From positions 1-27,762 of IMG/VR virus record IMGVR_UViG_3300029927_000055: DNA of 27,762 bases; one strand, given 5' to 3'. Numbering within the stretch: the first letter of the stretch is position 1; each line of letters begins with the position of its first letter. This DNA comes from a virus. Shown here piece by piece: positions 3,801 through 27,762 of this stretch. Made by a program: the position numbers and the translations under genes. Under the pieces are notes generated by a model. The model made no database searches, was not told the DNA's origin, and saw only the letters and a list, made by a program, of their open reading frames with translations.

Positions 3801-6800
3801 ACTATCATTCGATTTTTTAGTCTTGTTCTTGTAAAAGAAGTCTAAGTAGTGTGCCATCTCATGAGCCATTACTTCCATGTCACTATAGTTTTTTACTCGT
3901 ATAGCACTATCTTGTCTTTTGTAAACACCTAAAGCACTCTTAGCTTTTATTTTTGCTTCGTAGAGTCTATTGCCTATAATGTCTTTAAGATATACTCTTA
4001 AGCTATCAGCATTTATAGGAGCATCTATGCTTGGAAGAAGTACAGTTTTTACACCTATGTCTATAGTTCCATCTTTAGAACGAGTCGGCATATTTGAAGA
4101 AGAGTAAGTAGGTATATAGTTCGCTCCAGCTTCATCAAAACCATTAGCACGAGCATAAGCATCTGCTTCTTCTTGATTTTTTTTCTCTTTTTGAGTCATA
4201 TTGTTATTAATAGAATGGTTCATCTTGTTTTGCATATAACTATCCGAGCCACTATCGCTTACATTCTCTTCACTCTCAAGTATCTGTTGCTCTGTGTATG
4301 CAGCTTTTATGAGAGCTATATCTACATTCACACCATCTTTTGTATACTCATCAGTGATAAACTTAGTATCTGCAAGCTGTGTAGCTTGCATCTCTCTTCT
4401 CCCATCAAGCTTACTCTCAATAGTTTTTATATCATCTCTTATCTCTTGAATAGTGTTTTCATATTTTACTTTTCGAGCTTGATTATCTGAGATATACTTC
4501 TCTAGTTTAGCTTTTTTCTCTGCTACATCTTTAACAGCTTTATACTCAGGGTAGTTCTTCTCTTGCAAGTTAGACTCTACACCTTTTATTCCGTTTTCAT
4601 AGTTTACAATAGAACCCTGCTTAATTCTAATATCAGCTTCAAGTTTTGTCACTATATTTTTAAGATTGTTAGCGTCCACTACAGCATTATCTATAACTCT
4701 CTGTTTTCTAAGTTTCTCTCTCACAAATGGATCACTCTCTAAATCTATTATAGCTTGATATGGGTCAGTCATAGACTTGTTGTCTATCTTAGAAACACCA
4801 TCATTATATACAATATCAGATGTATCACTAAAACCATATATGTCGTTAAACCCTCTCTTAGCAATAACAATGTCATAACTTCTTTTATCAAAGGTTCCAA
4901 GTTGGAAGAACTTATGTGTTCGTACAGAAGCATTTTCATTACCTTGTCTTACACCACGGTTATTCCTCTGCTCTATTTCATCAGGGCGAAAAGGAATATC
5001 TAACTGATATATGTCAGTAGTTTTTCTGTTTAGGTCTACTCCAACACCAAGCTTAGATGTATTGCCTATAATGACTTTTATCTTTCCTTCATTATACATA
5101 TCCATGATTTTGTTTAACATGTCAGGTTTAATAGAACCCTTTGAGACTTTACCAGTGTTATGGTTTACAAACTCACCACCATTAACAAACACAACCTCTG
5201 TTTCATCAAAAAGACCAGTAGCTAAAACTTGCTCTCGTATCTCTTGGTGTGTAGAAGTTGTAGTACCATCAGGATTTTTTACTTTTAATCTATCTAAAAA
5301 TATTATCTGTCCGCTATCAGGGTTCTCTTTATATTGATTTTTAACAAGGTCTACTGTTTTTAATATCTTGTTGTTTTCTATCGTAGCTTCATCATTAACA
5401 ATAAGCTCTGAGAGTTCATCATGTGTAAGTTCAGACTTTCCTTTAGTGCCTATATCGTAGAGTCTCAAGTCTATAGATGCACTTCGACCTGCACCCATAG
5501 GAACAAGTGCTATCTCTATACTATCAGCAGTTATTGCACCAGATTTTAAAAGTTTACCATCTTCTATAGCTTGAATAAGTCGAGCTTGCACATCCCCAAA
5601 GATTACCTCCCCAGCTTTTGAGAGTTTCATATAGTGTTCTACTTCTATCTGCTTAGGTCGTGGTAAGTCAGGCATAGACTCAAAACCTTTATAGTCTACA
5701 TATCTATCAAGTATCTTACCTAACCACTCCAAGTTTTTCATACTACCGAGACCTTCTCTTTTTACTATCTTACCAATACTATCTGTAGTCTCATAATTTT
5801 CAATGTCATAAAAAGTATCTACAAAATCACTAGAAGCTTCTATGCCGTACTCTAAAAGGATATTCTCATCTAGGTGTTGCAGGAGTGTATATAGTTCAAG
5901 AGGTTTGTTTGGTGTTGGTGTCCCTGTGAGGAGTATTACATTGTTACCATTGTTGTTTTGAGATACATATTTACTTTTAAATCTAAAGTCATAACTTCTC
6001 ATAGAACCAAGAGTAGCAGAGTAAGGCTCTGCACCATCTTTAATATCTTTAGTAGTCAGACTCTTTCCAGCTTTATCGGAGTACTTGATAGCTATAGTTG
6101 CCCCAAGTCCACCTTTAACATCTTTACCTTGCATACCTATGTTTTTATAGTACTGCACTTCATCTGCTATAAGTCCATCAAAGCCAAGTTTTGCAAAGTC
6201 AAACTCAACCTCTCCACCATAAGCTTGTCTCAGACCTACTTTAAGAGCTTTTCTTTTTTGCTCCGCAGATACTATCTCTTTTTTATCTTTTTTACTTGCA
6301 TCATCTGTAGCACTCTCTTCTTTTATCATCTGAGCTACAAGGTCATCAACATACTCACTGAGCACATCACTAGGCAGACCAAACTTTTGAAACATTGTAT
6401 CGCCAATGATAGTAAAGTCATATCTATTATTAGCAAGGTCAAATGCCATCTGCTCTTTCTCTTCACGAGAGAGTTGTGTCCACTCTTTAGCATTACCTTT
6501 ATTCTTTCCACTCTTCACTTTTGGAAACTCGTAAACACTAGCATCAGGATACAATTCTTTAACAGTTTCTTCCCATTGTGCTATGGTATTTACAGGAACA
6601 ACAAAAAGAGGTTTTTTCATTACACTCTGATCCAAAAGGTTTTTAACTGCTACAACTGCTGTGATTGTTTTTCCTCCGCCGGGGGCAAAAGCTAAAACAC
6701 CTTTTTTATTAAAGACTATTTTTTCAGCACCCTCGGCTTGATGCCCTTGCATTTTAAAAGGTTTACCACGAAAAGACTTAGGTAAATCTCTTAAGAGTAC

Positions 6801-9800
6801 ACCAGTCATTTCAGGTCTTACATAGAAGTTTGAAAATCTATTGTACTCATCTGTAAGTATTTCAGAAAGTCCAACACTTTCTATGTATTGCATGACTTTA
6901 GGAACAAGAGTAACATTTAAAATCTCTTCCGCATCCATAGTTCTTTGGATATTTTCAGAATCACTCTCATCTTTGAGCTTTGGTGCAAGGGCTGTTTTAT
7001 TTAAGTATCTGTTATAAAGTTCAGCATGAGAAGCATTCCCATTAAAAACACTATCATTAACTTTAAGTTCTCCCTTTTGCACTGCAAGAAGTTTATCTTT
7101 TACAACACTCGGTATCCAAGACTCTCCGCCCTTAACTTTTATACTCTTGTAGGGAATCGCTTTGGGGATAATACCTTTAAGGTTTGTATATTGAGCCTTA
7201 TACTCAGCACTTGAAATATTACCACTAGCATTAAGATTTTCTAAGTTGTCTAGCTTTTTATAAACATTACCAGCATAGTACATAAATCCAAGTTGAATTT
7301 CATTCTCACCACTTTGTACAAAAAGACTTTCGCTCTTTAGCTGCTTAATATCATTTGAGTTTAAAAACTCATACGATTTAGAAGTATCTATGATGCTATC
7401 AAAGTTTGAGTAAAAGAGTGCTCTATCCATAAGAGGGCTAGATGAGTCTATCTTTATATCTCCACTATTTTTAAAACGTGTCTTTTCTCCATAAATAGCA
7501 GCAGGGTTAAAATCTTTGTCAAAGTAAGACATAAACTCTTTGAGTTTTACATCTGCACGATTAGCTTTCATAAACTTTTTAAGTCCAAGGTCATTATGTG
7601 GAGACTTCTCATATATCTCTTTATAGGACTCTATCTCACTAAGTGCATTTTCTAAGAGTGTTTTACTTTCTTGATTTACCGCATCTTCTGTTAAGGTCAT
7701 GATTCTGTTTAAGTGCAAAGCCTTATTTGTATTGTTTCCTTTGAGTTTAGTTCCAAACATTACTATCTGCTCAGAGTCCCTAAAAGTCACTACTTTGTCA
7801 AAGAGAGTAAAACTATCACTTGTAATTTCAGAGAACACCTTTGTGTCTTGAACAACTTTCATAACAAGGGCATTATTTTTAGCATAGACTCTAGCTTCAT
7901 CTAAGTCTACAAAATTGCTCTTTTCTTCTTTAGACTTTTTAAGTTTTTTATATGGCTCATAATTGAGTTTGATTTTTTCTAGATTACTCTCGCCTCGAAC
8001 TATCCAACCCTCTTTACCCATCTTAGTTTTATCTTTATCTATAAGAACTTCATCCCCTAAAAGAAACTCAGGGTTAGCTATGAAGTACTCATTCATAGCA
8101 AATCCCTCTCTAGAGCCAACATTGATAAAGAGATTGTTTATGTCATTTTGTCTTGACTCTACACCACTAGGTCTTTTTTGTATGAAGATTATATCTATCA
8201 TAGTGTCTGTATGAGAATTTTTTGCTTGACTCTTCTCAGGTAGTCTAAAAGCCCCTATTAAGTCGCCTCTATCCATAAGATACTTTCTCAAACTTCTAGC
8301 CGTAGTAGTCCCATCCATAGTACCAGTACTTGTCATAAACGCGACAACACCATTATCTTTTACCTTGTCTATTGAATGAGCAAAGTAAAAGTTGTGAATT
8401 GCTTTAAACGCTGGCTTAATAGTCATGGCATGTTCTCTCATAAGCAACTGCTCACTTGCAAAAGGAACATTAGAGATGATTAGGTCGTAGTTTTTACCAG
8501 CGAATGTTTCATAAGTTTCATCATAAAAGTTTTTTATTTGAGGGTATAACCTTTTAGTCACTTCTATATTTGTAGTGTCTATATCCACAACATCCCATGA
8601 GGCATCAGGATTAAAGCCTACAAAGTTACCACTTCCAACTGCTGGCTCTAGTACCTTGTCCATAGTGATACCAGTACTTTTTAAAGCGGAGTACATAGCA
8701 TCTACTGTTTCATAGTTTGTATAGTGTTGATTGATAGAGTTTTCATTAACTGCATCAAGCCCACCCTCTCCAGTATAGTGTCTAAGTATCTCTCTATCTG
8801 CCTCAGTTATCTCTTCTAAAGGTTTTTTGATGATGTCAAGGGCAGAAGCATTAAACTTTTTTCTCTGCCCTTTAGTTAGTTCTACTGATTCTTTACCTAC
8901 TAGGCTGTAGTTCTTTGTAGGAGTGAGTCGTTCATTAGGTTTTGGTAGTACTGTGTCTGCATTAGTTGTTTGTTGCTCATTGAGTTTATCTTCGCTAGTG
9001 GTCGGAAGTCTGTCCACTCTTTCATCTTTTGTGGGTACTTCATTTCTATTGCTTCTATCATCACTAAGTCTGTCAGGTCGTTTATCGCTGTTTGGTACTG
9101 ACTTGTCACTTCCTTTATCGCTTTTGGATTCAGGTGTTTTTTGTTTTGCAGTTGGTACTCCAGCTGTATCACTTGTTCTGTCAGTTGTTGTACTGCTTTT
9201 ATTTTCGCTTGCATTTTTTGTTTCCTCTCTTTTAATTCTATTTTCAACTTCATATATTATATCATCTATAAACTCTTTACTGTCAAGTTTATGTGTAGGT
9301 ATGAACTGATTATTACCATCAACACCACTCTTTGAAGTGGTCCTAAAAAGATGCCCACCAACAAATCCATCACTAAGAGTATAGGCATCATTATTGGAGT
9401 CACTCTTGTAATCTAAGTCATAGTTTAAAGAGACATATATCCCTATGTCACTCTTTGGTTTAAATAATTTAAAAGTAGTATTTCCTCCTGCTTCTGCAAT
9501 GTTATCACTTACTCCATTATATGAAAGTTTTTTACCCTTAGCATTCAGAGCAAACTCATATCCTAGTCTATCAGCTAGTTGTTTTACATACCTTGCTACA
9601 TCTTTTTGAATCTGCTTAGAGATTAACCTGCTTGGTATCTCATCAGTAACACCTTTAGTGCTGTAGACCTTAGCACTATCAAATATTATATCTTTTGGAG
9701 TTTGTCTATTGTCACTAGCATCGCTGTCTCTTGTGACTCTTGTTTGTCCTTTGTCAGACTTAGCTGTCTCTTGTAAGTCTGCATCGCTTCCTCTGCTAGC

Positions 9801-12800
9801 TGTGCTATCTTTTCTTCTTTGAGTTCCATCTTCATACTTTTTGATTGTATCTTTATCCAGCCCTTCATATTTTCTAAGTTCACTTTCATTTTTGTATACC
9901 TCCCTTGTTTGATTGAGTTGTTTTGCTTTAACATCTAGTGCGGTAGCCATTTCGTTTAAAGCTATTGTAGTAGCTTCATTTTTTGGTAAGTCTCCACTCT
10001 CTAGTTTGTCTATAAAGTTTTTGTACTTCTGCTCGCTACCATAGTAACTAGCCTTAGATAGTTTAGATACGAGATAAACTTTAGAAAGATTACTATACTC
10101 ATACTCAGGAGTAGAACCAGTCCAAGATGCACCCTGTCTAATACTATCTTCTTTTTGTTTATCAAGTTTAAAATCTGTCAGTTTGCCATCTTTTTTTATT
10201 TCAAGAACACTTCCATCATCATATATCTTGTAGTTTGTATCATTTATAGATACATCTGTAGTTATTTCATCTTGCTTGCTTGAGGGTACTTCTGTACTAC
10301 CATCTTCTTGGATTCCTCCTTGGAGTATCCCTCCTCTTGTAGTCTCTTGTACATCTCCATTATCTTTGGTTTTACTTTCTGAAACTCCCGTCTCACTTCT
10401 CGCTCCTTGAGTCTCTGTAGTGTCGCTTGTTCTTCTTGGGATTGTGCCATTTTCTACTCCTTTTAAGTTATTCTCTAGTAAATCATAAAGAGCTTTTTGC
10501 TCTTGTATCTCTATCTCATTTAAGTCCCATCTCCCATCAAGTTCATCAAACCTAATTATCTCTTTTACAAGATGTGGGTCTCCTGCACTATGTAAAGCAT
10601 TCATCGCTCTATCTGACAACTCCGTATATGTACCATTATTTGCATCTGTAAGTGCTGTAATTATATCACTATATTTTGTAGTATCACTCACTATCTCTTT
10701 TGCCCATGATGGAGTAATATACTCCTCACTTGCTTGTGTATCAAAAAGAGCATTTTGTCCTGTTGGTTCTAGTCCAGTAAGTGAACCCTGTTTGCTCTGA
10801 ACTTTTTTAGTATTAGTACTTAAAAAGTCATAAGCTCTTTGAGTCTCAGCAGGTGTGTTCTTGTTTTCGTAGTAAGCTCTCTCTTCTTCTGCTATGTCAC
10901 TGGTACTAAGTTTTTTGAGTCGAGCCTCTTCGCTCTTGTCTGCATCAAAAAGTTTTTTATTTGCTTGTGCTAAAGCATCTTCACTATATCCATAAAGCTT
11001 TTCATTGAGTGCGAGCTTTGCATCTATTGCACTAGGAGTAGGTTTCTTCTTCCCTCTCGCATTAGCTTGTGACTCTTCTATTGATGGTGCCGAAGAAACT
11101 ATACTAAGAGTACTTGGACTTACTGCAAACTCTACACCATCAGCATTTATTACTGCTACCTTTTTTCTATCATAATTGTATTGATTATCACTAGGTGCAA
11201 CTGTCACTATACTGCTTTTACCATCTGAAGTGGTATACTCAACTTGTTTTCCACTCTCATAAGTGCCAATATTATCAGCTTGAAGTGCGGGACTATCATC
11301 TTCATAAAGATTTTTAGCATTTTTTGGTGCTGTTTCTATTTTGGTAGCAGTAGGCTCAATAACTTGTGTCGGTTCTGCCTCTACACCTTTAGGTTCTAAA
11401 GCTATCTCTTCTGTACTTCCTATCTCTGCTTCAAGCTCTTTAAAACCTATATCAATAGCATTAAGTCCATCTTCGTTTAAAACATTGAGTCCTTGCTTTT
11501 TAGCATCTTCGACTATGACTTCTTGCATATTTATATTCTCTACTGCTTCTACAGGTACTTCTACTTCAGGATTGTTTATAACAAAGTTAGTAAACTCATC
11601 TTGAATAGTTTTTACTTTTACCTCAAGGCTTTGTTTAAACTCTATATATCCATTATCATCCACAGTAGCAACAAGACCATTACCAAGAACATCTCTCTTG
11701 TAAGTATCTAAAATATACTCTTCTCTTTGAGTCTCTCGTTTTTTTGCAGAGTACTCATTGAGTGCCATACTACCAGTTGCAGTAGCACCACTAAGAGTAC
11801 CTCCCATACCAGCACCAGCAACCACACCAGCTAAAGAATTATCTACATACTGCTCAACACTGCTAAGACCTTTCTTCGTACTTACTTCTTCTCCAAACAT
11901 CTCTAAAGGATTTTGTACCCCCTCAGTAACACCCTCTTTAATAAAACCATCTTTCATCTTTGAGCCTATCTCTTTGGCAACTTCTGTAAGTTTACCATCA
12001 AGTGCTTTTTTACCAACACTCTGGACAACATCACTAGTCATAGCTTTAAGACCGAACCTATCCAACAAAATACTTCCTATTGTAGTTGGTGCAGATATAA
12101 GGTAGTCAGTAGCATTAGGCTCTTTTCTATTTTGATTTTTTGCTCTCTTCTCAGCACTCTCTTGAAGTCTTGAAGCATAGTACAGTGGTAGGGTAGCTAC
12201 CATCTCTGCCATATCAACACTACTAGCAACTCCCTCACTTCCCACATAGTTTCCAAGCTCTTGCCAAGCATCAATATCAAACACTCCACCTGTATTAAAA
12301 CCTTTTTTTACCTCTTCCCACGAGTGAGTTGGTTTATCTTTTTTGTTGAGTTTAAACTTGTTTTGCTCATAAACAAAGTCATTTAGTTTATCACTAGCAT
12401 CTTTGAACCACTCTTTCCTTTTTTTGCTCTGAGCATCCATAGCATCAGTAGATATTCCAAGATACTCTATAGGGCTTTTAATGTTTCCTAAGATATTGTA
12501 AGTACCTTGTATTGCATTTGCAGTTAGCTCATTAGTTCTATTTACAACTCTCTTAGCTAGTTCAAAATCTCCAGACTCAGGGTTAATATAATCTTCTTGT
12601 GGTTTGATGTTGTCTTCAAATGTAGCTATATCCATAGTACTAGTGCTGTCTTGATTAAAAGAAGTATCTGGAGTCTCTATTGATAATGGTTTTTGCTTTA
12701 TAGTAGGTATACTCCCATCAATATTTGGGGCAGTTGGATTGTGAATTGACGGATCACTTACAGTATCATCTTGTATGTAGTTTTTTGGAGGGTTTACAAA

Positions 12801-13010
12801 GTCGACTACTTTATCAACAGTATCACTCACATCAAAATCAATTTGTGCATTTATAAAATTATCTCTGATGCTTGTTTGTGTAGATGTATCAAGGGCAGTG
12901 AACTCATTATCAGCTATCTCAGTATCAAAATAGTTAGTAGCTATAGTCTGTTTTTCTTTTAAGTCGAGGGATTGAAATTCATTGTCGTTAAATGTATCTA
13001 GCTTTTTCAA
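825..13010 (-). CDS. Giant polyvalent phage protein: methyltransferase, helicase, metallopeptidase and large-polyvalent C-terminus (DarB-like)
   Basis: 4061 residues in one uninterrupted frame. The start is TTG at 13008-13010, chosen because AAAGG lies 6 nt upstream and because two related repeats (DNEFQSLDLKEKQ, DNEFTALDTSTQ) begin within 10 residues. Seen in order: a Gly-rich, membrane-compatible stretch near 392-415; long low-complexity Ser/Asp/Lys linkers near 870-1340; an N6-adenine methyltransferase with motif I LEPAVGSGNF (about 1453) and NVPF (about 1513); an SNF2/DEAD-type helicase with Walker A APGGGKT (about 2107), ADEVQ (about 2279), LLTGTPTPN (about 2358) and a motif-VI-like RGVRQGN (about 2690); a coiled-coil region; HEMAHYLD (about 3048) with a downstream GFAEF as possible third zinc ligand; and a C-terminal phage large-polyvalent region with one hydrophobic segment near 3740. 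Such proteins are known to be packaged and injected, e.g. P1 DarB in antirestriction. That role is inferred here. Confidence 0.85.
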   Translation of the reverse strand: MKKLDTFNDNEFQSLDLKEKQTIATNYFDTEIADNEFTALDTSTQTSIRDNFINAQIDFDVSDTVDKVVDFVNPPKNYIQDDTVSDPSIHNPTAPNIDGSIPTIKQKPLSIETPDTSFNQDSTSTMDIATFEDNIKPQEDYINPESGDFELAKRVVNRTNELTANAIQGTYNILGNIKSPIEYLGISTDAMDAQSKKRKEWFKDASDKLNDFVYEQNKFKLNKKDKPTHSWEEVKKGFNTGGVFDIDAWQELGNYVGSEGVASSVDMAEMVATLPLYYASRLQESAEKRAKNQNRKEPNATDYLISAPTTIGSILLDRFGLKAMTSDVVQSVGKKALDGKLTEVAKEIGSKMKDGFIKEGVTEGVQNPLEMFGEEVSTKKGLSSVEQYVDNSLAGVVAGAGMGGTLSGATATGSMALNEYSAKKRETQREEYILDTYKRDVLGNGLVATVDDNGYIEFKQSLEVKVKTIQDEFTNFVINNPEVEVPVEAVENINMQEVIVEDAKKQGLNVLNEDGLNAIDIGFKELEAEIGSTEEIALEPKGVEAEPTQVIEPTATKIETAPKNAKNLYEDDSPALQADNIGTYESGKQVEYTTSDGKSSIVTVAPSDNQYNYDRKKVAVINADGVEFAVSPSTLSIVSSAPSIEESQANARGKKKPTPSAIDAKLALNEKLYGYSEDALAQANKKLFDADKSEEARLKKLSTSDIAEEERAYYENKNTPAETQRAYDFLSTNTKKVQSKQGSLTGLEPTGQNALFDTQASEEYITPSWAKEIVSDTTKYSDIITALTDANNGTYTELSDRAMNALHSAGDPHLVKEIIRFDELDGRWDLNEIEIQEQKALYDLLENNLKGVENGTIPRRTSDTTETQGARSETGVSESKTKDNGDVQETTRGGILQGGIQEDGSTEVPSSKQDEITTDVSINDTNYKIYDDGSVLEIKKDGKLTDFKLDKQKEDSIRQGASWTGSTPEYEYSNLSKVYLVSKLSKASYYGSEQKYKNFIDKLESGDLPKNEATTIALNEMATALDVKAKQLNQTREVYKNESELRKYEGLDKDTIKKYEDGTQRRKDSTASRGSDADLQETAKSDKGQTRVTRDSDASDNRQTPKDIIFDSAKVYSTKGVTDEIPSRLISKQIQKDVARYVKQLADRLGYEFALNAKGKKLSYNGVSDNIAEAGGNTTFKLFKPKSDIGIYVSLNYDLDYKSDSNNDAYTLSDGFVGGHLFRTTSKSGVDGNNQFIPTHKLDSKEFIDDIIYEVENRIKREETKNASENKSSTTTDRTSDTAGVPTAKQKTPESKSDKGSDKSVPNSDKRPDRLSDDRSNRNEVPTKDERVDRLPTTSEDKLNEQQTTNADTVLPKPNERLTPTKNYSLVGKESVELTKGQRKKFNASALDIIKKPLEEITEADREILRHYTGEGGLDAVNENSINQHYTNYETVDAMYSALKSTGITMDKVLEPAVGSGNFVGFNPDASWDVVDIDTTNIEVTKRLYPQIKNFYDETYETFAGKNYDLIISNVPFASEQLLMREHAMTIKPAFKAIHNFYFAHSIDKVKDNGVVAFMTSTGTMDGTTTARSLRKYLMDRGDLIGAFRLPEKSQAKNSHTDTMIDIIFIQKRPSGVESRQNDINNLFINVGSREGFAMNEYFIANPEFLLGDEVLIDKDKTKMGKEGWIVRGESNLEKIKLNYEPYKKLKKSKEEKSNFVDLDEARVYAKNNALVMKVVQDTKVFSEITSDSFTLFDKVVTFRDSEQIVMFGTKLKGNNTNKALHLNRIMTLTEDAVNQESKTLLENALSEIESYKEIYEKSPHNDLGLKKFMKANRADVKLKEFMSYFDKDFNPAAIYGEKTRFKNSGDIKIDSSSPLMDRALFYSNFDSIIDTSKSYEFLNSNDIKQLKSESLFVQSGENEIQLGFMYYAGNVYKKLDNLENLNASGNISSAEYKAQYTNLKGIIPKAIPYKSIKVKGGESWIPSVVKDKLLAVQKGELKVNDSVFNGNASHAELYNRYLNKTALAPKLKDESDSENIQRTMDAEEILNVTLVPKVMQYIESVGLSEILTDEYNRFSNFYVRPEMTGVLLRDLPKSFRGKPFKMQGHQAEGAEKIVFNKKGVLAFAPGGGKTITAVVAVKNLLDQSVMKKPLFVVPVNTIAQWEETVKELYPDASVYEFPKVKSGKNKGNAKEWTQLSREEKEQMAFDLANNRYDFTIIGDTMFQKFGLPSDVLSEYVDDLVAQMIKEESATDDASKKDKKEIVSAEQKRKALKVGLRQAYGGEVEFDFAKLGFDGLIADEVQYYKNIGMQGKDVKGGLGATIAIKYSDKAGKSLTTKDIKDGAEPYSATLGSMRSYDFRFKSKYVSQNNNGNNVILLTGTPTPNKPLELYTLLQHLDENILLEYGIEASSDFVDTFYDIENYETTDSIGKIVKREGLGSMKNLEWLGKILDRYVDYKGFESMPDLPRPKQIEVEHYMKLSKAGEVIFGDVQARLIQAIEDGKLLKSGAITADSIEIALVPMGAGRSASIDLRLYDIGTKGKSELTHDELSELIVNDEATIENNKILKTVDLVKNQYKENPDSGQIIFLDRLKVKNPDGTTTSTHQEIREQVLATGLFDETEVVFVNGGEFVNHNTGKVSKGSIKPDMLNKIMDMYNEGKIKVIIGNTSKLGVGVDLNRKTTDIYQLDIPFRPDEIEQRNNRGVRQGNENASVRTHKFFQLGTFDKRSYDIVIAKRGFNDIYGFSDTSDIVYNDGVSKIDNKSMTDPYQAIIDLESDPFVREKLRKQRVIDNAVVDANNLKNIVTKLEADIRIKQGSIVNYENGIKGVESNLQEKNYPEYKAVKDVAEKKAKLEKYISDNQARKVKYENTIQEIRDDIKTIESKLDGRREMQATQLADTKFITDEYTKDGVNVDIALIKAAYTEQQILESEENVSDSGSDSYMQNKMNHSINNNMTQKEKKNQEEADAYARANGFDEAGANYIPTYSSSNMPTRSKDGTIDIGVKTVLLPSIDAPINADSLRVYLKDIIGNRLYEAKIKAKSALGVYKRQDSAIRVKNYSDMEVMAHEMAHYLDFFYKNKTKKSNDSFFRVEILRNKEEVKALSYTTNPKNVIREGFAEFVRLWLTNYNSLELVAPNMVADFEVKLSSDKVLLKKMTLLQEGLHQYFHQGSHATLRSKQGGELNKTAKKLQRSQAEIAKNFRQATIDKIHSIKRIEAEVLGDNASDAIDSPYKLLQLVNGASSIMYSAMNIGIPTVQDNGDISYSGKALNDIFAPVTSKGEERVRLFSDYLVAKRANELMAQGRENLISKDEIKIGLDLGEMYPEFESVSDEYQEFNDRMLDFYVNMNLITTSQRENFKEFNKNYVPFARVTESVQFGEVAPATIGQRLTGGTRSLGDIMENIINGIESNIKEALISRGKSVFYEMLQESGMGGVYATKVSVEDKLVKSDIQQQAKKIALIMSELGITVSKDGMILSGDITSDNIIDVKEIEANLVQNPEALEFWTHGHKPTSKTAYIDSAIIDDKVVYFEVNDKALVDAMTSFRSANYNELVQGLMTIKNVMTWNITNNPLFYLTNFVRDTISASVLSKNNFKPVLSSIAGAYHFVTKSKTFKEFMASGSGYGTRRTTLGSDIQAMSMLKVNRGLDLVSKLISAMEYGADIFEYGTRVGDFSLAQRSGKSNLQSSYEAREVSTDFAIKGGNDTFSGFMATVPFMKAGINGIDKTARRIFSLNGEMQFSNAIKFKNQLGELQTHKIKIYATGGMIAGLTLALWFQNRDDERYKKLTRDSKLMYWHFFIGDNHIKVPRPYDIGFAFSTIPEIIVDGIYTKHGEQAVKDFLWGSKNMFSVGDISGLFQPILEDMTNTNWTGSPIVPRNMQNLDDLSDQYFSSTPKMYREFGKATGTSPIKLQHYVDGYLGLTAKMIEEVTENLLWNKKEWGARPFERNALEFLTYRFKAREVEPRSKYSEKYYELMKKASGVKASYEKKRKEAFIDKGKDIRAYMSDKEKQAYLSVDKMLKKFNKTLTQIKVSIEVVSYDKSLSKTQKEKLINDAYTNKTTMFKEITESLETELKKLKGE
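2801..2816. repeat. 16-bp GC-core inverted repeat inside the giant gene
   Basis: ATTTCCC-TC-GGGAAAT, 7-bp arms around two bases, lies in coding sequence and encodes ISRGKS. It shares TTTCCC.CGGGAAA with the palindrome at 15410-15425, which encodes the same SRGK tetrapeptide in the same frame. The GC-rich core and the CGA/GGG codons are unlike the surrounding AT-rich sequence. Function unknown. Confidence 0.55.
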
Positions 13011-21125: not shown

Positions 21126-22007
21126 TTATGTTGCCTTTACAGTCTCAGCTAAAGCTATCTCAGTACCATCTGCATTAAGTACAGGACTATAATCCACAGG
21201 AGAAGAACCTGAATTTATATAAATTTTTTCAAGCATATTTTTATATATCTTCCACATATCTGTAGTAATGACAAAACCACCAACGCCTAAGTTCCCTAAT
21301 GTATCACTATAGTCTTGCATCGCTTTTATTCTGTTGTTATATATTACTGAGTATCCTAACTGCTTTTCTTGCTCTTTTACGAAATTTACATCTGCATTTA
21401 ACTTCTCTTGTGTAAGTTCTTGAGTAGACTTTGCAACACCAGTAGTAGCAAGTGTTTTCGTTTTTACATCTCCAACCGAAGCAAGTCCATCTATAACTTC
21501 TTGATCAGTACTTACATAATATGTATAGTCAAAGTATGTATTTCCTGTAGTGAGTTTAGCAGCTATGTACTGTTCATCTTTAATAAGTAAATCTTTTGCT
21601 AATTGTGCATCTCTAGCAGCTGTTGCACTTGCTATGTCTAGTGCTTTGTTTGTTTCACTATCGGCTTGTCTTCCAACGAGTGTAGCACTTTTGTCTATTC
21701 TAATTCTCTCACTCGCTTTGTTAAGTAGGTCCTGAGTTGATTGTGCATCCCTTACGGCTGTAGCACTTGCTATGTCTAGTGCTTTGTTTGCCTCTGTAAC
21801 TATCTGCTTATCTAAAAGTAAAAAACCTTTTATGACTTGGAGTGATTGAGTACTCTGGCTCATTGCTCCTATGATTATGTTTGATGCAGCAGTTGCTAAA
21901 CTCTCATCCTCCATTTGAGTAGCTTCTTGTAACTTTTTAAGTTCACTCATCCCTTTTGTTAAAAATTCATCATATAAACTTTTAAGTTCAGTTGTATCTA
22001 TTGCCAT
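21126..22007 (-). CDS. Helical virion-like protein with internal 46-residue repeat
   Basis: 293 residues. The first 155 are almost wholly helical, with a duplicated segment NKALDIASATA.RDAQ at about 72-87 and 118-133. The C-terminal part (about 155-293) contains beta segments and aromatic residues (YFDYTYYV, FVITTDMWKIYKNM). AAGGA lies 7 nt before the ATG. It lies between the lysis cassette and the head module and is cotranscribed with the next gene. A rod-like tail or injection protein is a fair guess; no family was recognised. Confidence 0.5.
   Translation of the reverse strand: MAIDTTELKSLYDEFLTKGMSELKKLQEATQMEDESLATAASNIIIGAMSQSTQSLQVIKGFLLLDKQIVTEANKALDIASATAVRDAQSTQDLLNKASERIRIDKSATLVGRQADSETNKALDIASATAARDAQLAKDLLIKDEQYIAAKLTTGNTYFDYTYYVSTDQEVIDGLASVGDVKTKTLATTGVAKSTQELTQEKLNADVNFVKEQEKQLGYSVIYNNRIKAMQDYSDTLGNLGVGGFVITTDMWKIYKNMLEKIYINSGSSPVDYSPVLNADGTEIALAETVKAT
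21625..21790. repeat. Direct repeat, 28 bp identical, period 138 bp
   Basis: The same 28 bases occur at 21625-21652 and 21763-21790, in frame with a 46-codon period. They encode the repeated NKALDIASATA segments in the 293-residue protein and mark a recent internal duplication. Confidence 0.75.
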
Positions 22008-22244: not shown

Positions 22245-22643
22245 TTATATACTTCTCTTCATCAGGTTAGATAATTTTTTAGCTCTATTTGGAGTCTGTA
22301 TCGCCCATTTACTATCGAGCATCTCTTCACTTGCACTTACATAATCAAAATTCTTTAAATGCTTCCACATTTTCTTAAATTTAAGTACACCATTAACACC
22401 CATCTGATAACTCATTTCTGAAATTACACTTTGTGCATTTAATGTAAGTTTATTAACAAAAGGCTCTTTTTTCTCAAGCTCTTTGATTTTCTCTTTTAGT
22501 CTCATCTCTAAGATTACTTGTGACTCTTCTTTACTTAGTGGTAGTTTTGTTCCATAACCTATAGTTGCAAAACCTAGTGTATCAGCATAAGGCATCCCAC
22601 GAAACCCCTCAGACTCTTTAACGTTTTCTATTAACTCTTTCAT
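22245..22643 (-). CDS. Endolysin, T4-type lysozyme (GH24)
   Basis: 132 residues, shorter than T4 lysozyme (164). The N-terminal active site matches the family: Glu12 in ESEGF, Asp21 in YADT and Thr27 in FATIGYGT, in the T4 spacing Glu-8-Asp-5-Thr. It hydrolyses the glycan strands of peptidoglycan and releases the phage. There is no signal peptide or SAR helix, so it needs a holin for export. Its ATG overlaps the stop of the upstream gene (ATGA), consistent with a lysis operon. Confidence 0.85.
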   Translation of the reverse strand: MKELIENVKESEGFRGMPYADTLGFATIGYGTKLPLSKEESQVILEMRLKEKIKELEKKEPFVNKLTLNAQSVISEMSYQMGVNGVLKFKKMWKHLKNFDYVSASEEMLDSKWAIQTPNRAKKLSNLMKRSI

Positions 22644-23059
22644 TCTTTATCCTTGTTATCGTTTAGTTCTCTTAACATGTAAGTAGAAAATGCTTTTGTC
22701 AGCTCTTCTAGCTTTCCCAGCATCACATCGCTATTTTTAGTCATGTGTGCCAGTTCGCTGTCTATATTTTTTAAGTGTAGAGCAAGTTCATGTTTTGAAA
22801 CAAATTTACTATCTGCTGTTTTTTCATCAAGAAGAGTTCCAAATTTTGATTCGAGTCTTGTAGCTCTATCATGGCAGTCATCTATTCTTCTAAACTGAGC
22901 ATCCAACTTCCTGTCCATATCATGATGATAAACAGTGTCAGTCTCTAAGTGTGACTTTGCACCTTTTTCTAGTGAGTCTAGTCTATTCCTAACTATTCCA
23001 TAACCAAAAGCAACAGCTAACAGTCCACTTCCCGCACTTATCATCCAACTCTCTAACAT
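22640..23059 (-). CDS. Membrane-anchored coiled-coil protein, candidate spanin-like or lysis accessory
   Basis: 139 residues with one N-terminal membrane segment (about 4-23) and a long charged helical remainder with coiled-coil spacing. This N-in helix plus periplasmic coil resembles inner-membrane spanins such as Rz, though no outer-membrane partner was found. AAGGAG precedes the ATG. It lies between holin and lysozyme and overlaps the lysozyme start by 4 bases. Alternatives are a holin regulator or a tail-associated protein. Confidence 0.5.
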   Translation of the reverse strand: MLESWMISAGSGLLAVAFGYGIVRNRLDSLEKGAKSHLETDTVYHHDMDRKLDAQFRRIDDCHDRATRLESKFGTLLDEKTADSKFVSKHELALHLKNIDSELAHMTKNSDVMLGKLEELTKAFSTYMLRELNDNKDKE

Positions 23060-23099
23060 TTAGCTCTCCTTGTACTTACTAACTAATATGACTTTCATA

Positions 23100-23528
23100 T
23101 CACTTTCCTCTAATCGAGTTTATAGTTCCACCACCAAAATAAAAAACTACTATCGTTCCTATGATTATGCCTACATTAAAAGTAAGTACAAGATTAAACA
23201 ACGGTTCTAAAGATATTTCAATTATATTTTTCACTTCTACACCATTGCTTAGTTCTATATACTTATGTATAGAATTAAATACTACTATCACAAGACCTAT
23301 TAAAAAAGCTAAAGAGTACAAAAACATAAAACTAAATGTAATGAACCTTTGAGCTATTTTAAAAGGTTCGTAAGCACCAAGCATTTTTATATGTAGTTCT
23401 CCGACCTTTTGCTTCATCTCTGCTTTTTCTTCATTGGTATATACAAGTTTATCACCCGTAGCTATAACAGCATCTACAACGCTATCTATACTTTTGACAC
23501 TAAATATACCTTTTATTAAATCAAACAT
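23100..23528 (-). CDS. Holin, 3TM/GTA-type family
   Basis: 142 residues. A helical N-terminal part (YTNEEKAEMKQKVGEL, about 30-45) is followed by two clear membrane helices (about 62-84 and 111-131) ending in FYFGGGTINSIRGK. This arrangement resembles the holin family described for gene-transfer-agent release. It would form inner-membrane lesions and let the lysozyme out. AAGG lies before the ATG. It is separated from the lysozyme by one small gene. Confidence 0.65.
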   Translation of the reverse strand: MFDLIKGIFSVKSIDSVVDAVIATGDKLVYTNEEKAEMKQKVGELHIKMLGAYEPFKIAQRFITFSFMFLYSLAFLIGLVIVVFNSIHKYIELSNGVEVKNIIEISLEPLFNLVLTFNVGIIIGTIVVFYFGGGTINSIRGK

Positions 23529-23530
23529 CT

Positions 23531-23794
23531 CTAAACCTTAGTAACTATGATTCCATACTCTAAAGCGTATAAAACCATAGAAGGTGCAAATGTATAAACA
23601 AAATCCATAAAGTCTGCTGTGTTCGTTTTAGGATTATAATAGTCATAAACTTCTTTACCTAGTGATTGAACAAACACTACACATATCGCTAAGTGTGGAT
23701 TAACCATACCTACTACAATATATGTCAGCAAACCGTAAAAAGCATGATTTGCTTTATCTTGTGGCATCAGCATCCACTTGAGTACTTTGCTCAT
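23531..23794 (-). CDS. Small phage membrane protein with DKxxH and GKExxD motifs
   Basis: 87 residues with two or three hydrophobic stretches (about 17-42 and 66-84). Conserved-looking residues are Asp13, Lys14 and His17 (QDKANH), GKEVYD (46-51) and TADFMD (59-64). This DKxxH...GKExxD...D pattern is shared with small membrane proteins of unknown role that are common in phages and bacteria. It is first in the lysis cassette, 2 bp before the holin, so it may be a second holin or pinholin. The function is inferred only from context. Confidence 0.5.
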   Translation of the reverse strand: MSKVLKWMLMPQDKANHAFYGLLTYIVVGMVNPHLAICVVFVQSLGKEVYDYYNPKTNTADFMDFVYTFAPSMVLYALEYGIIVTKV

Positions 23795-23795
23795 C

Positions 23796-24197
23796 TTAGT
23801 ACCCTATTTCAGCTTTGAGACCAAATCCTAAAGATAAACACTCTTGTACATAAGCCTCATAAGCAACTCTTTTAGCATCTGCTGGATCTCTCTTACTCTG
23901 TGCAACTTCATCAGCAACATCATACTTTTTTGCTATTTCTGTTTTTACAACTTCACGGATACGCTTAAGCTGTGCAGAGTTAGTAACTAGTGCTTTAAAC
24001 TCATCTTTTAAAATTACGGTTGCACTTATCTCTGTTGGCTGTTGTGCTATAAGTGCATCAATATCAGCCTCAACCGTAGACTCTAAACTAACAACACCTG
24101 TATCAAAAACATTAACTGTAACACTCACAACACCACCCTTGAACTCTAAAACTGAAAACTCAGCCTCAACTTTTGTAAACTTTACATACTTAAACAT
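23796..24197 (-). CDS. Unknown protein, coupled to the reverse transcriptase
   Basis: 133 residues. The first 55 look beta-rich (EFSVLEFKGGVVSVTVNVF), the rest helical and charged with KRIREVVKTEIAKKY (about 78-92) and a conserved-looking Cys. GAGGAG lies 7 nt before the ATG, and the start lies inside the end of the reverse transcriptase gene (16-bp overlap). No membrane segment or enzyme motif. It could be a DGR accessory, a tail-fibre chaperone or a lysis-operon leader. Confidence 0.5.
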   Translation of the reverse strand: MFKYVKFTKVEAEFSVLEFKGGVVSVTVNVFDTGVVSLESTVEADIDALIAQQPTEISATVILKDEFKALVTNSAQLKRIREVVKTEIAKKYDVADEVAQSKRDPADAKRVAYEAYVQECLSLGFGLKAEIGY

Positions 24198-25231
24198 AAC
24201 AAACTCCTCTTTGGTATTAAAATAAAATCAGGCATATATCTTAAAACTATTTTTCTAAAGTAGCTAAGAGTATTTGTGCCTTTTGCATGACCGATAATAG
24301 ATACTATCGAACTAATATTTTTATCTATAACTGATTTTCTAAACTTGTACAATGTATGTTTTCGAACAAATTTTACACTTCTCCATGTACGATACCCCAC
24401 AAAGTTCAAGCCTCTTTTTATCTTTAGTATATGCCAGTGACTTAGTTGCATTTTTAGCTTTTTATCAACAAACTCTTCACACTGTTTTTGTGCTATTTTT
24501 GCTTCATCTAAAGTTAGCCCTACCAGTACAAAGTCATCTACATATCTAACATAACTCTTTATCTTCAAAACTCTCTTTATGAAGTTGTCTACCTCATTCA
24601 TATAGACTAGAGAGTACAACTGACTCAAAAGGTTGCCAATAGGAATGCCGACACTTGATCCATTTGCATCAGCAAAAACCATCATCAAGTCTATAAACTT
24701 CTTGTCTTTTATCCTTTTTTCAAATAGTCCTCTTAATATAGTTCTATCAATAGAGTAAAAAAACTTCTTAATGTCAAGCTTTAATGTATATTTATCTCCA
24801 TCATACTTACACATCTCTTTTTGTGTATAAGCACTAGCCTTATGTGTCCCACCATTTTTTCTACAAGCGAAGCTTGTGTCTATAAACGTACTATTAAAAA
24901 TATTATAGATGACTCTATAAATAGCATGTTGCACAACAAGGTCTCTAAAATGAGGTGCTAAAATAACTCTTCTCTTTGGTTCATACACCTCAAACTCTCT
25001 ATATGGTTTTGTGGTATATGTTTGTGTTTTTAACTCTTCAAATAGTGCATCCAAGTTAAGACTTAAATTTTTTTCAAATAGATATGTTCCTACTTTTTTT
25101 CTCTTGCCTTTTCTAGCTTCTAAATATGCTACAAAAAGGTTATCTTGAGTAAAAGCAAGTTCATACAAGTTGCCATATCGTTTCGAGGTTCTTAGAATTT
25201 CTAAGCCATATTTTTCTTTCATACTTGCCAT
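24182..25231 (-). CDS. Diversity-generating retroelement reverse transcriptase
   Basis: 349 residues, within the usual 280-400 of DGR enzymes. Polymerase motifs are LKLDIKKFF (150-158, catalytic Asp153), GIPIGNLLSQ (195-204, the G...SQ motif typical of DGR enzymes in place of the group II intron QG) and YVDDF (230-234, catalytic Asp pair). Further downstream LNFVGYR (about 275) matches motif 7. It lacks a maturase or endonuclease domain. It lies downstream of the avd gene and template repeat on the same strand, the canonical DGR order, and makes the adenine-mutagenised cDNA. It overlaps the next gene by 16 bp. Confidence 0.93.
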   Translation of the reverse strand: MASMKEKYGLEILRTSKRYGNLYELAFTQDNLFVAYLEARKGKRKKVGTYLFEKNLSLNLDALFEELKTQTYTTKPYREFEVYEPKRRVILAPHFRDLVVQHAIYRVIYNIFNSTFIDTSFACRKNGGTHKASAYTQKEMCKYDGDKYTLKLDIKKFFYSIDRTILRGLFEKRIKDKKFIDLMMVFADANGSSVGIPIGNLLSQLYSLVYMNEVDNFIKRVLKIKSYVRYVDDFVLVGLTLDEAKIAQKQCEEFVDKKLKMQLSHWHILKIKRGLNFVGYRTWRSVKFVRKHTLYKFRKSVIDKNISSIVSIIGHAKGTNTLSYFRKIVLRYMPDFILIPKRSLLCLSM

Positions 25232-25320
25232 ACTTTAATAAATCCCCTCTTTAAAATTTCGCTTTTAGCTGGACTCCACATCCCTCTTTTCCAATCTTGT
25301 TTTTGACATTTTAGGATTAC

Positions 25321-25439
25321 AATAGAGTCGAAACCACCAACATTCGTGTTCGAGTTCGAAGAATAGTTATTCAAATTGAGGGCGAAAACCCCAGCATTAG
25401 AAGAATTATTCCAATTCCCACCGACAATCGGCACGAGAC
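25321..25439 (-). repeat. DGR template repeat (TR)
   Basis: This 119-bp sequence aligns without gaps with 25902-26020 (offset 581). There are 19 differences. In 17 of them the TR coding-strand base is adenine, out of 25 adenines in TR. The other two (25395 and 25396) are at G and T. TR is rich in AAT and AAC codons if read in the VR frame (GGNWNNSSNAGVFALNLNN), the usual mutable design. It lies between the avd and reverse transcriptase genes and is transcribed on their strand. The surrounding 25232-25474 holds no other gene. Confidence 0.95.
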
Positions 25440-25474
25440 ACAAAGCATGTTAATGTGATAGCCCATTGAGTTAT

Positions 25475-25876
25475 TTAAAACTCTTTTAGTTCTTTTAGCT
25501 TGTTTATCCAAGCACCAATAATCTTACCTATTTCGTCTATAAGTCTCGATATAGCAAGGTATCTATGTTCAGGTTTAGCTACTTTTATGTTTTTAGCACC
25601 ATTCTTAAAAGCAAAATATTCAAGCTCATAAGCAAGATTTATCTGCATTCTAAGTTTTTCATGCTCAATATCAAGCATCGTTAAAGAGGTCTTTTTGTGA
25701 TACCTCTTTTGACACTCAGTAATTAAATCGTAAACGCGATATGCAGTATTTCTAATCCCATTAGATAAAGCATACTTCTCATACCGAGGGAAATGATTAA
25801 GATACATATTGAGTAACTTCATCATCTCCACAAACTTACGGTTCAAAACAACCTCTCCTTTACAAGCCTTTACCAT
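25475..25876 (-). CDS. avd: DGR accessory variability determinant (bAvd-like)
   Basis: 133 residues if started at ATG 25876. The helical core with TSLTMLDIEHEKLRMQINLA (about 63-82) matches bAvd proteins, four-helix bundles that form a positively charged pentamer and bind the reverse transcriptase and template RNA. The ATG has only a weak ribosome-binding site. TTG at 25846 is preceded by AAGGAG at 8 nt, so the true product may lack 10 residues (starting LNRKFVEMM). It lies 17 bp after the variable-protein gene and before TR. Confidence 0.88.
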   Translation of the reverse strand: MVKACKGEVVLNRKFVEMMKLLNMYLNHFPRYEKYALSNGIRNTAYRVYDLITECQKRYHKKTSLTMLDIEHEKLRMQINLAYELEYFAFKNGAKNIKVAKPEHRYLAISRLIDEIGKIIGAWINKLKELKEF

Positions 25877-25886
25877 TCGCTACCGC

Positions 25887-25901
25887 TCTCTATTACAGAG
25901 A
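25887..25901. other. Small hairpin abutting the 3' end of the VR
   Basis: TCTCT and AGAGA (5 bp, 5-base loop) border the last VR position (25902) on the outer side and include the stop codon of the variable protein. In Bordetella phage DGRs a cruciform just after the VR aids homing. This one is shorter, so the role is tentative. Confidence 0.35.
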
Positions 25902-27413
25902 AACAGAGGCGAAACCACCAACAGCCGTGCCCGAGATCGAAGAATAGTAAAGCAAACTGAGGGCGAAAACCCCAGACCTAGAAGAATCAGCCCAAGCCCC
26001 ACCGACAATCGGCACGAGACCATGTCTCATATATTTATAAATATAATCATTACCAAACTCTGTTGTACCTGTAGCATCTACACCAAGAGCCGTAGGAATT
26101 CCACAACTAGCCATCTTGTACTCTTTGGAGTTTGTATCAGTAGAAAAGTTTAAAACTGTATTTGTCCCACTTCCAAAATATACTGTTCCGCTATTGCTAT
26201 CTATAACCCCTGTCATATCTAGTAAATCATAGTTTGCACTATCAAGTAGGTTAGCAGATGTTAAACTATCTGCTCTTACAGATGTTTTTAATATTCTAAA
26301 ATATCTTGATGAATAAACACCATCAGTAGCAGAAATAGCTCTCTCAAGTGCTGTACCTACTGTAAAATTATCGGCATCGGTGACTGCTGTAACTGTATAA
26401 GCTGCTGTGTTATATGTAGAACCACTAGCTGGAGTCCCACCGAAGTAGATAACATCGTTTACAGCAAGTCCATGACCAACCATAGCTATTGCAGTACCAC
26501 CACTTGCAACACTAGCACCAGTTTTTGCAAGGTAGGTAAGTCCTGTAACAATCTTCCACATATTACCTGTCATATCTGCTATACCGCAGTCCTGACCATT
26601 GTGTGTAGTTTTTGCGAAATTTGAACCACTTCCCGTTAAAGAAGCATTGGAATAACCACTTGCTGTAAAAGTAACACTTGTATCATTTACATCACTGAGT
26701 GCATTAGCAAGATTTCCTTTTGGGAAGTATGGTAAGACATCATTATATGCACACAAAGCAGTCGATGCACCACTTTGGCTTTGAGCTAAAGCTATTAATT
26801 GCAGAGCAATCCATTCAAAAATAGTAGGTGTCTTATACCCATCAGCTCTACAAGCATCTATAAATCCTGCATAGTTATTTGCTGGTGCTGATACTAAAGC
26901 ACTAATAGGATTGTGAGCAGAGTTTGTAGATAGTGGATCTAAATTTTGTTTAGATACCATCTTCCCACCCTCATTTCCTGCCATGTATTTAAAATGCAGA
27001 AAACCATTTGGTGAGTCAATAAATGCTCTTGGCGTTACATTTCCTGTTACTGCAATAGGACTAATGCTTATAACATTACCTGTCATCTTGTATGTAAATG
27101 GAGCAATGTATTCAAGCACACTTCCTTTTAAGTCCATAATAAGACCATAGTTTGGATGTGCGACATCTGCATGACCTGTAAGCTTTACATATCCTGCGGG
27201 AACTAACTCATCTTTCATGGCAGCAACACCAAAGCCCATAGTTCCAGCTACACCGATATTATAAGCTGTGTCCTCTGGTAAAATATCAAAATTGATATCA
27301 ACTAACTTCTGTAAGCTCGCACCTGCATAGCTTAACTGTTCAAGGTCTGTACTTGTATCTGCAACTTCTTCAATTTTTCGAACAAGTGTATCTCTTGCAC
27401 TTTTTAAACCCAT
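25893..27413 (-). CDS. DGR variable protein, C-type-lectin/FGE-like receptor-binding protein
   Basis: 506 residues. The N-terminal part (about 1-170) is a separate beta-rich region. The C-terminal part has an FGE/C-type-lectin-like block with GIADMTGNMWKIVTG (277-291), a Gly/Ala/Thr-rich beta insert of about 75 residues (297-370), and the terminal variable region starting near LVPIVGG (466-472). The VR encodes residues 466-504. In DGR phages this fold displays mutable residues for receptor binding; a tail-fibre tip role is inferred here. AAGGAG lies before the ATG. The upstream gene encodes a repeat-rich fibre-like protein. Confidence 0.85.
   Translation of the reverse strand: MGLKSARDTLVRKIEEVADTSTDLEQLSYAGASLQKLVDINFDILPEDTAYNIGVAGTMGFGVAAMKDELVPAGYVKLTGHADVAHPNYGLIMDLKGSVLEYIAPFTYKMTGNVISISPIAVTGNVTPRAFIDSPNGFLHFKYMAGNEGGKMVSKQNLDPLSTNSAHNPISALVSAPANNYAGFIDACRADGYKTPTIFEWIALQLIALAQSQSGASTALCAYNDVLPYFPKGNLANALSDVNDTSVTFTASGYSNASLTGSGSNFAKTTHNGQDCGIADMTGNMWKIVTGLTYLAKTGASVASGGTAIAMVGHGLAVNDVIYFGGTPASGSTYNTAAYTVTAVTDADNFTVGTALERAISATDGVYSSRYFRILKTSVRADSLTSANLLDSANYDLLDMTGVIDSNSGTVYFGSGTNTVLNFSTDTNSKEYKMASCGIPTALGVDATGTTEFGNDYIYKYMRHGLVPIVGGAWADSSRSGVFALSLLYYSSISGTAVGGFASVSL
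25902..26020 (-). repeat. DGR variable repeat (VR)
   Basis: VR is the last part of the variable-protein gene. Compared with TR, residues changed are N473A, N475A, N476D, N479R, A480S, N486S, N488L, N489Y, N493I, N495G, N497A, D502A and I504V. All except A480S come from template adenines. The 14-bp block at 25910-25923 is identical to TR and would fit the homing-initiation end; the outermost differences at 25904 and 25909 could be adenine changes or cis-element differences. No second VR was seen in the window. Confidence 0.95.
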
Positions 27414-27467
27414 TTGTAACTCCTTATATTTTTTGAACAGTTTAAAGACATGTTTTTGGTCATCTGC

Positions 27468-27762
27468 TTATAGGTTTAAACCTATTCCGAAACTCTGCAT
27501 TTTAAATCTTCTAGCTACTTTAAAAGTATCACTATAGATGGTATTTACTTGATTATTTATATCATCAATTTTTAGATTTTTATATGTTTCTAAATCTGAA
27601 ATTTTTAAGTCTTTGTAAGCTTCTAAGTCTATGTTTTTCAAATCCTTATAGGCTTCTAGGTCCACTACTTTTGCATCTTTAAATGCTGTGAGTTGAGTCT
27701 CTTTTGTTGTTGTGTATGTGTCAAGGTCGACTACTTTTGCATCTTTAAATGCTGTGAGTTGA
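27468..27762 (-). CDS. C-terminal end of a fibre-like protein with 11-residue repeats (5' end beyond the window)
   Basis: The reading frame runs open from the right edge; the GTG at 27663-27665 is not needed as a start. The sequence repeats with an 11-residue period: DLEAYKDLKNI, DLEAYKDLKIS, DLETYKNLKID, then DINNQVNTIYS, with upstream VVDLDTYTTTK and ETQLTAFKDAK units (22-residue double period). Such hendecads form right-handed coiled coils as in phage fibres. It ends FGIGLNL. It lies 54 bp before the variable-protein gene and probably forms its shaft or attachment. Confidence 0.65.
   Translation of the reverse strand, partial: QLTAFKDAKVVDLDTYTTTKETQLTAFKDAKVVDLEAYKDLKNIDLEAYKDLKISDLETYKNLKIDDINNQVNTIYSDTFKVARRFKMQSFGIGLNL
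27661..27762. repeat. 66-bp direct repeat in the fibre-like gene
   Basis: Positions 27661-27696 and 27727-27762 are identical except at one base (27663/27729). The offset of 66 bp equals 22 residues or two 11-residue units. The window ends inside the second unit, so more copies may follow. Confidence 0.8.

Follow-up and report, generated by a model that had tools for sequence, protein, structure and literature searches.

The 27,762-nucleotide stretch analysed here (the window) is the whole of IMG/VR record IMGVR_UViG_3300029927_000055 and is without host flank. Near its end, a non-coding template repeat (TR) recurs in altered form as a variable repeat (VR) at the edge of a phage gene, with a reverse transcriptase (RT) encoded close by. 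The locus raises the question of whether this is a complete diversity-generating retroelement (DGR), whether the differences between the repeats are its work, and whether it is still at work in this phage. Our reading, to which we assign a probability of roughly 0.95, is that the locus is a DGR of the standard BPP-1 type, carried by a podovirus-like and probably temperate Campylobacterota phage.

TR and VR differ at template adenines

TR (25321-25439, minus strand) and VR (25902-26020, minus strand; at the extreme C-terminus of the variable protein, VP) were re-counted, and the figures of the first-pass annotation were confirmed: an ungapped match of 119 bp with 19 differences, 17 of which lie at template adenines, so that 17 of 25 adenines in TR are changed (hypergeometric p = 9.7e-13). 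The two non-adenine differences are T44->G and G45->T on the TR sense strand; the T->G at position 44 (window 25396, VR 25977) adjoins the G->T. When the TR was used as a query against the whole 27,762-bp record, it matched at TR and VR only, and the pair was the sole family of long direct repeats within 22500-27762. Elsewhere, a tail gene contains an internal repeat of approximately 70 bases (21602-21813), and imperfect repeats are also present in relative L013.

The TR carries 10 AAY codons in phase with VR. All changed adenines occupy codon position 1 or 2, mostly of AAT/AAC (Asn) codons, and in no case did an adenine change create a stop codon in VR. With the last, fixed codon excluded, 13 codons are variable, corresponding to about 4e13 possible proteins.

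The 3' end of the repeat behaves differently from its core. TR position 112 lies in GAC (Asp), its VR counterpart being GCC in all close relatives, and of the 80 unique relatives, 74, the window's element among them, share a fixed TR GACT / VR GCCT difference. Since a mutagenised adenine would not become C every time, the difference at 112 is best regarded as a fixed IMH*/IMH-type marker, and its fixation indicates that information transfer stops before TR position 112. Past this marker, around position 117, the likeness of TR and VR is no longer kept. Judged from these alignments, the adenine differences at 112 and 117 fall beyond the mutagenised core and are not products of mutagenesis; we assign them to an IMH-like VR 3' end (GGTTTCGCCTCTGTT..., 25902-25919, minus strand) with a fixed C opposite TR A112. 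The whole 119 bp was thus rejected as the mutagenised region because a fixed TR/VR difference sits in its 3' end. This leaves 15 of 23 core adenines, together with the two non-adenine changes, to be counted as mutagenesis. The proposal that adenine mutagenesis acted here in the past is supported, with two of its 17 adenine differences re-assigned to the IMH.

All parts of a DGR are present and intact

On the minus strand, the window encodes, in order, VP (25893-27413, 506 aa), avd (accessory variability determinant; 25475-25876, 133 aa), TR and RT (24182-25231, 349 aa). All three ORFs are intact and, as had been noted, the parts lie on one strand in canonical order; it is the order of BPP-1. 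The end of VR lies 9 bases from the end of the VP ORF. Avd was identified by Pfam (bAvd, 6e-18) and PHROG ('Avd protein of DGR', 3.3e-21), and RT likewise (RVT_1, 4.3e-15; PHROG RT, 2.6e-98). The RT contains the motifs IGNLLSQ (DGR-type GxxxSQ) and catalytic YVDD, which are invariant or nearly so in seven relatives, and a search with its profile found the solved RT chain of BPP-1 (8ub7, E = 6.6e-71).

Family searches placed VP in PHROG 2889/20912 and in no confident Pfam family. An AlphaFold2 model built from 44 sequences (mean pLDDT 88) was used in preference to one built from six, which was discarded at pLDDT 33. The best match of this model among PDB folds was TaqVP (5vf4, E = 1.2e-13), followed, among DGR proteins, by Mtd variants (E about 0.005-0.02). 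As modelled, VP has a C-type-lectin-like fold into which a beta domain is inserted around residues 300-360. One relative of VP has an Mtd_N domain and another a phage tail-fibre N-terminus; by analogy with these, VP is probably placed on the tail.

With Avd, a DGR-type RT, a C-type-lectin-like VP model, TR, VR and a GRNA-loop hairpin all found, the claim of a complete phage DGR is upheld. By homology to BPP-1, an RT-Avd complex would copy TR-containing RNA, erring frequently at template adenines, and in mutagenic retrohoming the mutagenised cDNA would take the place of VR at the VP gene's 3' end. The IMH and the post-VR hairpin would single out VR rather than TR as the recipient, the function of the hairpin again being assigned from BPP-1. 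The result would be an altered ligand-binding face on a VP with a probable tail location and a probable role in binding the host surface, both tail position and receptor binding being drawn from the same homology.

VR changes while TR stays among relatives

Relatives were gathered by RT, TR/VR pairs were found by script and 80 unique pairs were tallied. In a recount without base preference over the 105 bases that precede the fixed GACT, the rate of change was 52.5% for TR adenines, compared with 1.6% for T, 0.5% for C and 0.4% for G. The choice of pairs leans to adenine, given that the finder tolerated adenine mismatches and allowed up to four others, but this lean is insufficient to explain an excess of about 100-fold. 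Among the 54 non-adenine changes in the 80 pairs, 31 are T->G, 4 are T->C and none is T->A. The non-adenine changes are not random, and the T->G excess may be a second, less frequent kind of error made by these RTs; a fixed-site artefact was rejected as its source because the T->G changes are scattered along VR.

Six pairs of sister phages with identical TRs were compared, in which 79 of 81 VR differences occurred at template adenines, against 34 differences in 27,311 flanking bases outside VR. For L144/L145, all 14 VR differences were at TR adenines (flank, 3 in 4,041 bases); the corresponding values were 15 of 15 for L169/L170 (8 in 5,600), 20 of 20 for L179/L181 (23 in 4,984), 6 of 6 for L182/L183 (0 in 5,930), 21 of 23 for L204/L207 (0 in 2,027) and 3 of 3 for L208/L209 (0 in 4,729). 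Across the clade, VR changes while TR stays, and the DGR clearly works in this family. The nearest relatives of the window's element (RT 69-73% identical) possess nearly the same TR, each with its own adenine-type VR.

These comparisons bear on whether the repeats could have arisen by ordinary duplication and diverged under positive selection, without templated mutagenesis. Direct repeats do exist in the tail genes of this phage. However, the adenine focus of the TR/VR differences (p = 1e-12), on which we rejected this explanation, has its equal in the approximately 100-fold excess in the 80 pairs; the TR is placed between avd and RT and is not part of any conserved gene; and near-identical phages differ almost only at VR adenines. 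We consider a duplication of this kind next to impossible. The parts, the adenine bias, the one-way flow of information and the VR-only variation of sister phages together identify a bona fide, complete DGR.

A hairpin with a tandem G.A mismatch follows VR

For BPP-1 and a number of other phage DGRs a hairpin after VR has been described, with a GC-rich stem of 7-10 bp and a GRNA loop, that is required for retrohoming; for BPP-1, whether a cruciform forms was left open (Guo et al., PMC3240598). The window has a counterpart at 25871-25894 (minus strand; sense AGAGAGC-GGTA-GCGAATGG) with the GRNA-type loop GGTA, the 3' arm of which overlaps the avd start codon. Its stem begins with two Watson-Crick pairs followed by tandem A.G/G.A. 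The core GAGC-GGTA-GCGA is present with weak outer pairs (A.A, G.T), and the predicted DNA fold is marginal at -0.8 kcal/mol; an uninterrupted GC-rich stem of 7-10 bp, as defined for BPP-1, was not found in this hairpin.

Downstream of VR, 72 of the 80 relatives have the motif RY-GRTA-RY at a distance of no more than 60 bases; shuffles gave an expectation of 0.6, and after TR the motif occurs in 1 of the 80. In 54 of the 80, the window's element included, the stem contains the tandem G.A mismatch (A.G then G.A), always on the sense strand; such stems consist of two Watson-Crick pairs, A.G and G.A, and then two further pairs. A search for perfect-stem hairpins had missed most relatives because of this mismatch.

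In an alignment of 60 sequences, the four Watson-Crick columns were paired in 91% of cells (shuffles, 65%) and showed 74 double changes (shuffles, 24), a signal that was lost when the partners were slid. The sequences had been picked for a loop with plausible closing, which favours the inner pairs and affects the outer pairs far less; the outer stem pairs covary too. The mismatch positions are mostly occupied by G.A/A.G or by Watson-Crick pairs. None of 79 elements had the complementary C.T there, a pair that would be expected if the antisense arm were equally important. In a quick RT tree, strongly supported branches forced at least six interchanges between the G.A and the Watson-Crick state.

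A tandem G.A on the sense strand is a C.T on the opposite strand, which is less stable. Given that the G.A occurs on the sense strand only, selection appears to act on the sense-strand hairpin. This suggests, at what we would put just short of an even chance, that recognition of VR in this clade may involve only a sense-strand hairpin, whose loop is GRTA and whose stem has tandem sheared G.A in place of Watson-Crick pairs, and not a symmetric cruciform. DNA folding energies favoured the sense over the antisense strand in six of six pairs tested, but the values were small and mostly no better than those of shuffles, so that the case for the hairpin rests on covariation and not on energy. Within the limited coverage of the open-access literature searched, no earlier mention of a sense-strand tandem G.A hairpin was found. 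The strand asymmetry makes the choice between hairpin and cruciform (PMC3240598) testable.

Past and present action in this phage

A longer record, IMGVR_UViG_3300029868_000036 (47,494 bp), contains all 27,762 bases of the window with zero mismatches, VR included. As VR is the same in both records, they give no sign of recent change in this particular element. The first-pass annotation had stated that diversification has acted on this phage, and this holds for the past; for current action, the two sole records share one VR.

Three points thus count against our reading: the shared VR, the two non-adenine VR changes and a hairpin weaker than that of BPP-1 (PMC3240598). All three would fit a DGR that was once active and is now inactive in this phage, its VR having been diversified earlier and fixed since, whereby the non-adenine changes could be later point mutations and the stem is weak beyond its two inner pairs. 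Conversely, the RT, Avd and VP ORFs are intact with their catalytic and DGR motifs, 15 of 23 core adenines are changed, and the closest relatives keep the same parts, each with its own adenine-type VR. The two records may also come from one population or sample series and so provide no test of rate. We regard an inactive element as unlikely.

The phage and its host

The window carries a P22-type portal (P22_portal, 2e-90) and a Phage_capsid_3 head protein, which bear out the description of the phage as podovirus-like. The term prophage, also applied earlier, was not borne out, the window being an entire record with no host flank in which integration could be seen. The other 20 kb of the 47,494-bp record encodes two tyrosine recombinases, an S24-type repressor, ParA, ParB, a primase and a DnaB-like helicase, and the record also has a terminase-like protein, recognised by sequence with no Pfam hit. 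This gene content suggests a temperate phage. ParA and ParB lie beside the two recombinases (6510-7971 and 328-1413 of L018, the rest of the 47-kb record), and the phage could persist as a plasmid-like prophage.

Two further features of the genome were observed. A single polyvalent protein of 4,061 aa (825-13010) has SNF2/helicase domains and LPD38, probably with methyltransferase- and metallopeptidase-like parts, and is presumably injected together with the DNA; a 12.8-kb ORF is present in a Helicobacter ganmani prophage. A coiled tail protein with DLEAYKDLK units is encoded as tandem repeats at 27468-27762 and at the start of the 47-kb record, where each record ends; these repeats probably broke both assemblies.

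The closest RT relatives in genomes belong to Sulfurovaceae (65%) and Helicobacteraceae (63%), and in the RT tree the window falls in a 40-row clade (support 94) whose named genome-borne members are all Campylobacterota. Portal matches lie mostly in Helicobacter prophages, the N-terminal region of VP matches Campylobacter and Helicobacter phages, and the DGR, portal and capsid of the H. ganmani prophage are related to those of the window. These lines lend indirect support to the Campylobacterota host proposed earlier, and by kinship such a host is probable. Of the phages with 70-73% identical portals, three carry the DGR (G008, G009, G365) and two show no RT in the fragments compared (G006, G007).

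Could the host instead lie outside Campylobacterota, with the DGR or tail module recently acquired from phages of that group? A portal scan of genome contigs revealed no close prophage of this phage, a search of 347 Campylobacterota genomes yielded portal matches of only about 28-35% identity, and the portal was not found in the genomes of RT relatives. DGR modules move, portal relatives L013 and L014 are without RT in the fragments compared, and RT relatives at 50-56% occur in Pseudomonadota. Set against this are the grouping of the RT with Sulfurovaceae, Helicobacteraceae and Sulfurimonas, the mainly Helicobacter origin of the portal matches, the VP N-terminus and the H. ganmani prophage with its similar DGR, portal and capsid. 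This DGR is rare in Campylobacterota (4 of 347 genomes searched at E <= 1e-40, three of the four already among the RT relatives). An outside host appears improbable to us, and a phage of Campylobacterota remains the preferred reading.

Comparison with known systems

The window resembles Bordetella phage BPP-1 (mtd-avd-TR-brt), also a podovirus, in its one-strand order VP-avd-TR-RT, in its TR-to-VR spacing (581, compared with 556 in BPP-1) and in having a GRNA-loop hairpin after VR. By the same scan, the TR/VR differences of BPP-1 are adenine-only, at 17 of 23. The two RTs are 36% identical. Unlike BPP-1, whose variable protein is Mtd, the window has a VP with a fold nearest TaqVP; its stem contains a tandem G.A mismatch where that of BPP-1 is uninterrupted and GC-rich, and it is without the 14-bp GC-only tract. 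TaqVP of Thermus aquaticus (5vf4) shares the modelled C-type-lectin-like fold over about 460 alignment columns (E = 1.2e-13) at 16% identity. The window's VP differs in being a phage protein, in its helical N-terminal segment and in an inserted beta domain with weak similarity to endosialidase/tailspike domains.

Other DGRs belong to the RT clade of the window and come from IMG/VR phages and Campylobacterota genomes (L031/L037, L039, L133, L139, L051 of Sulfurovaceae and L052 of Helicobacteraceae). These have the gene order of the window (nearest RT 69-73%), nearly the same TR, the GACT/GCCT marker and a GRTA hairpin. Each has its own VR, and most members of the wider clade that were tested gave no match to the window's portal. 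The Helicobacter ganmani prophage BK070120 is related in RT (44% identity), Avd, VP N-terminal region, portal and capsid; its TR/VR differences are adenine-only (10 of 21), and its hairpin has a perfect 9-bp stem with a GATA loop.

More than 30,000 DGRs have been catalogued from metagenomes (PMC8144416), and the window's adds one element to a well-known type, being a phage DGR of the ordinary kind. What is added is a coherent, Campylobacterota-linked clade of phage DGRs in which near-identical phages differ at VR only, and a conserved recognition hairpin with a strand asymmetry, the part that a specialist would want to test. Should that asymmetry prove to reflect function, the target would be recognised as a sense-strand hairpin rather than a symmetric cruciform.
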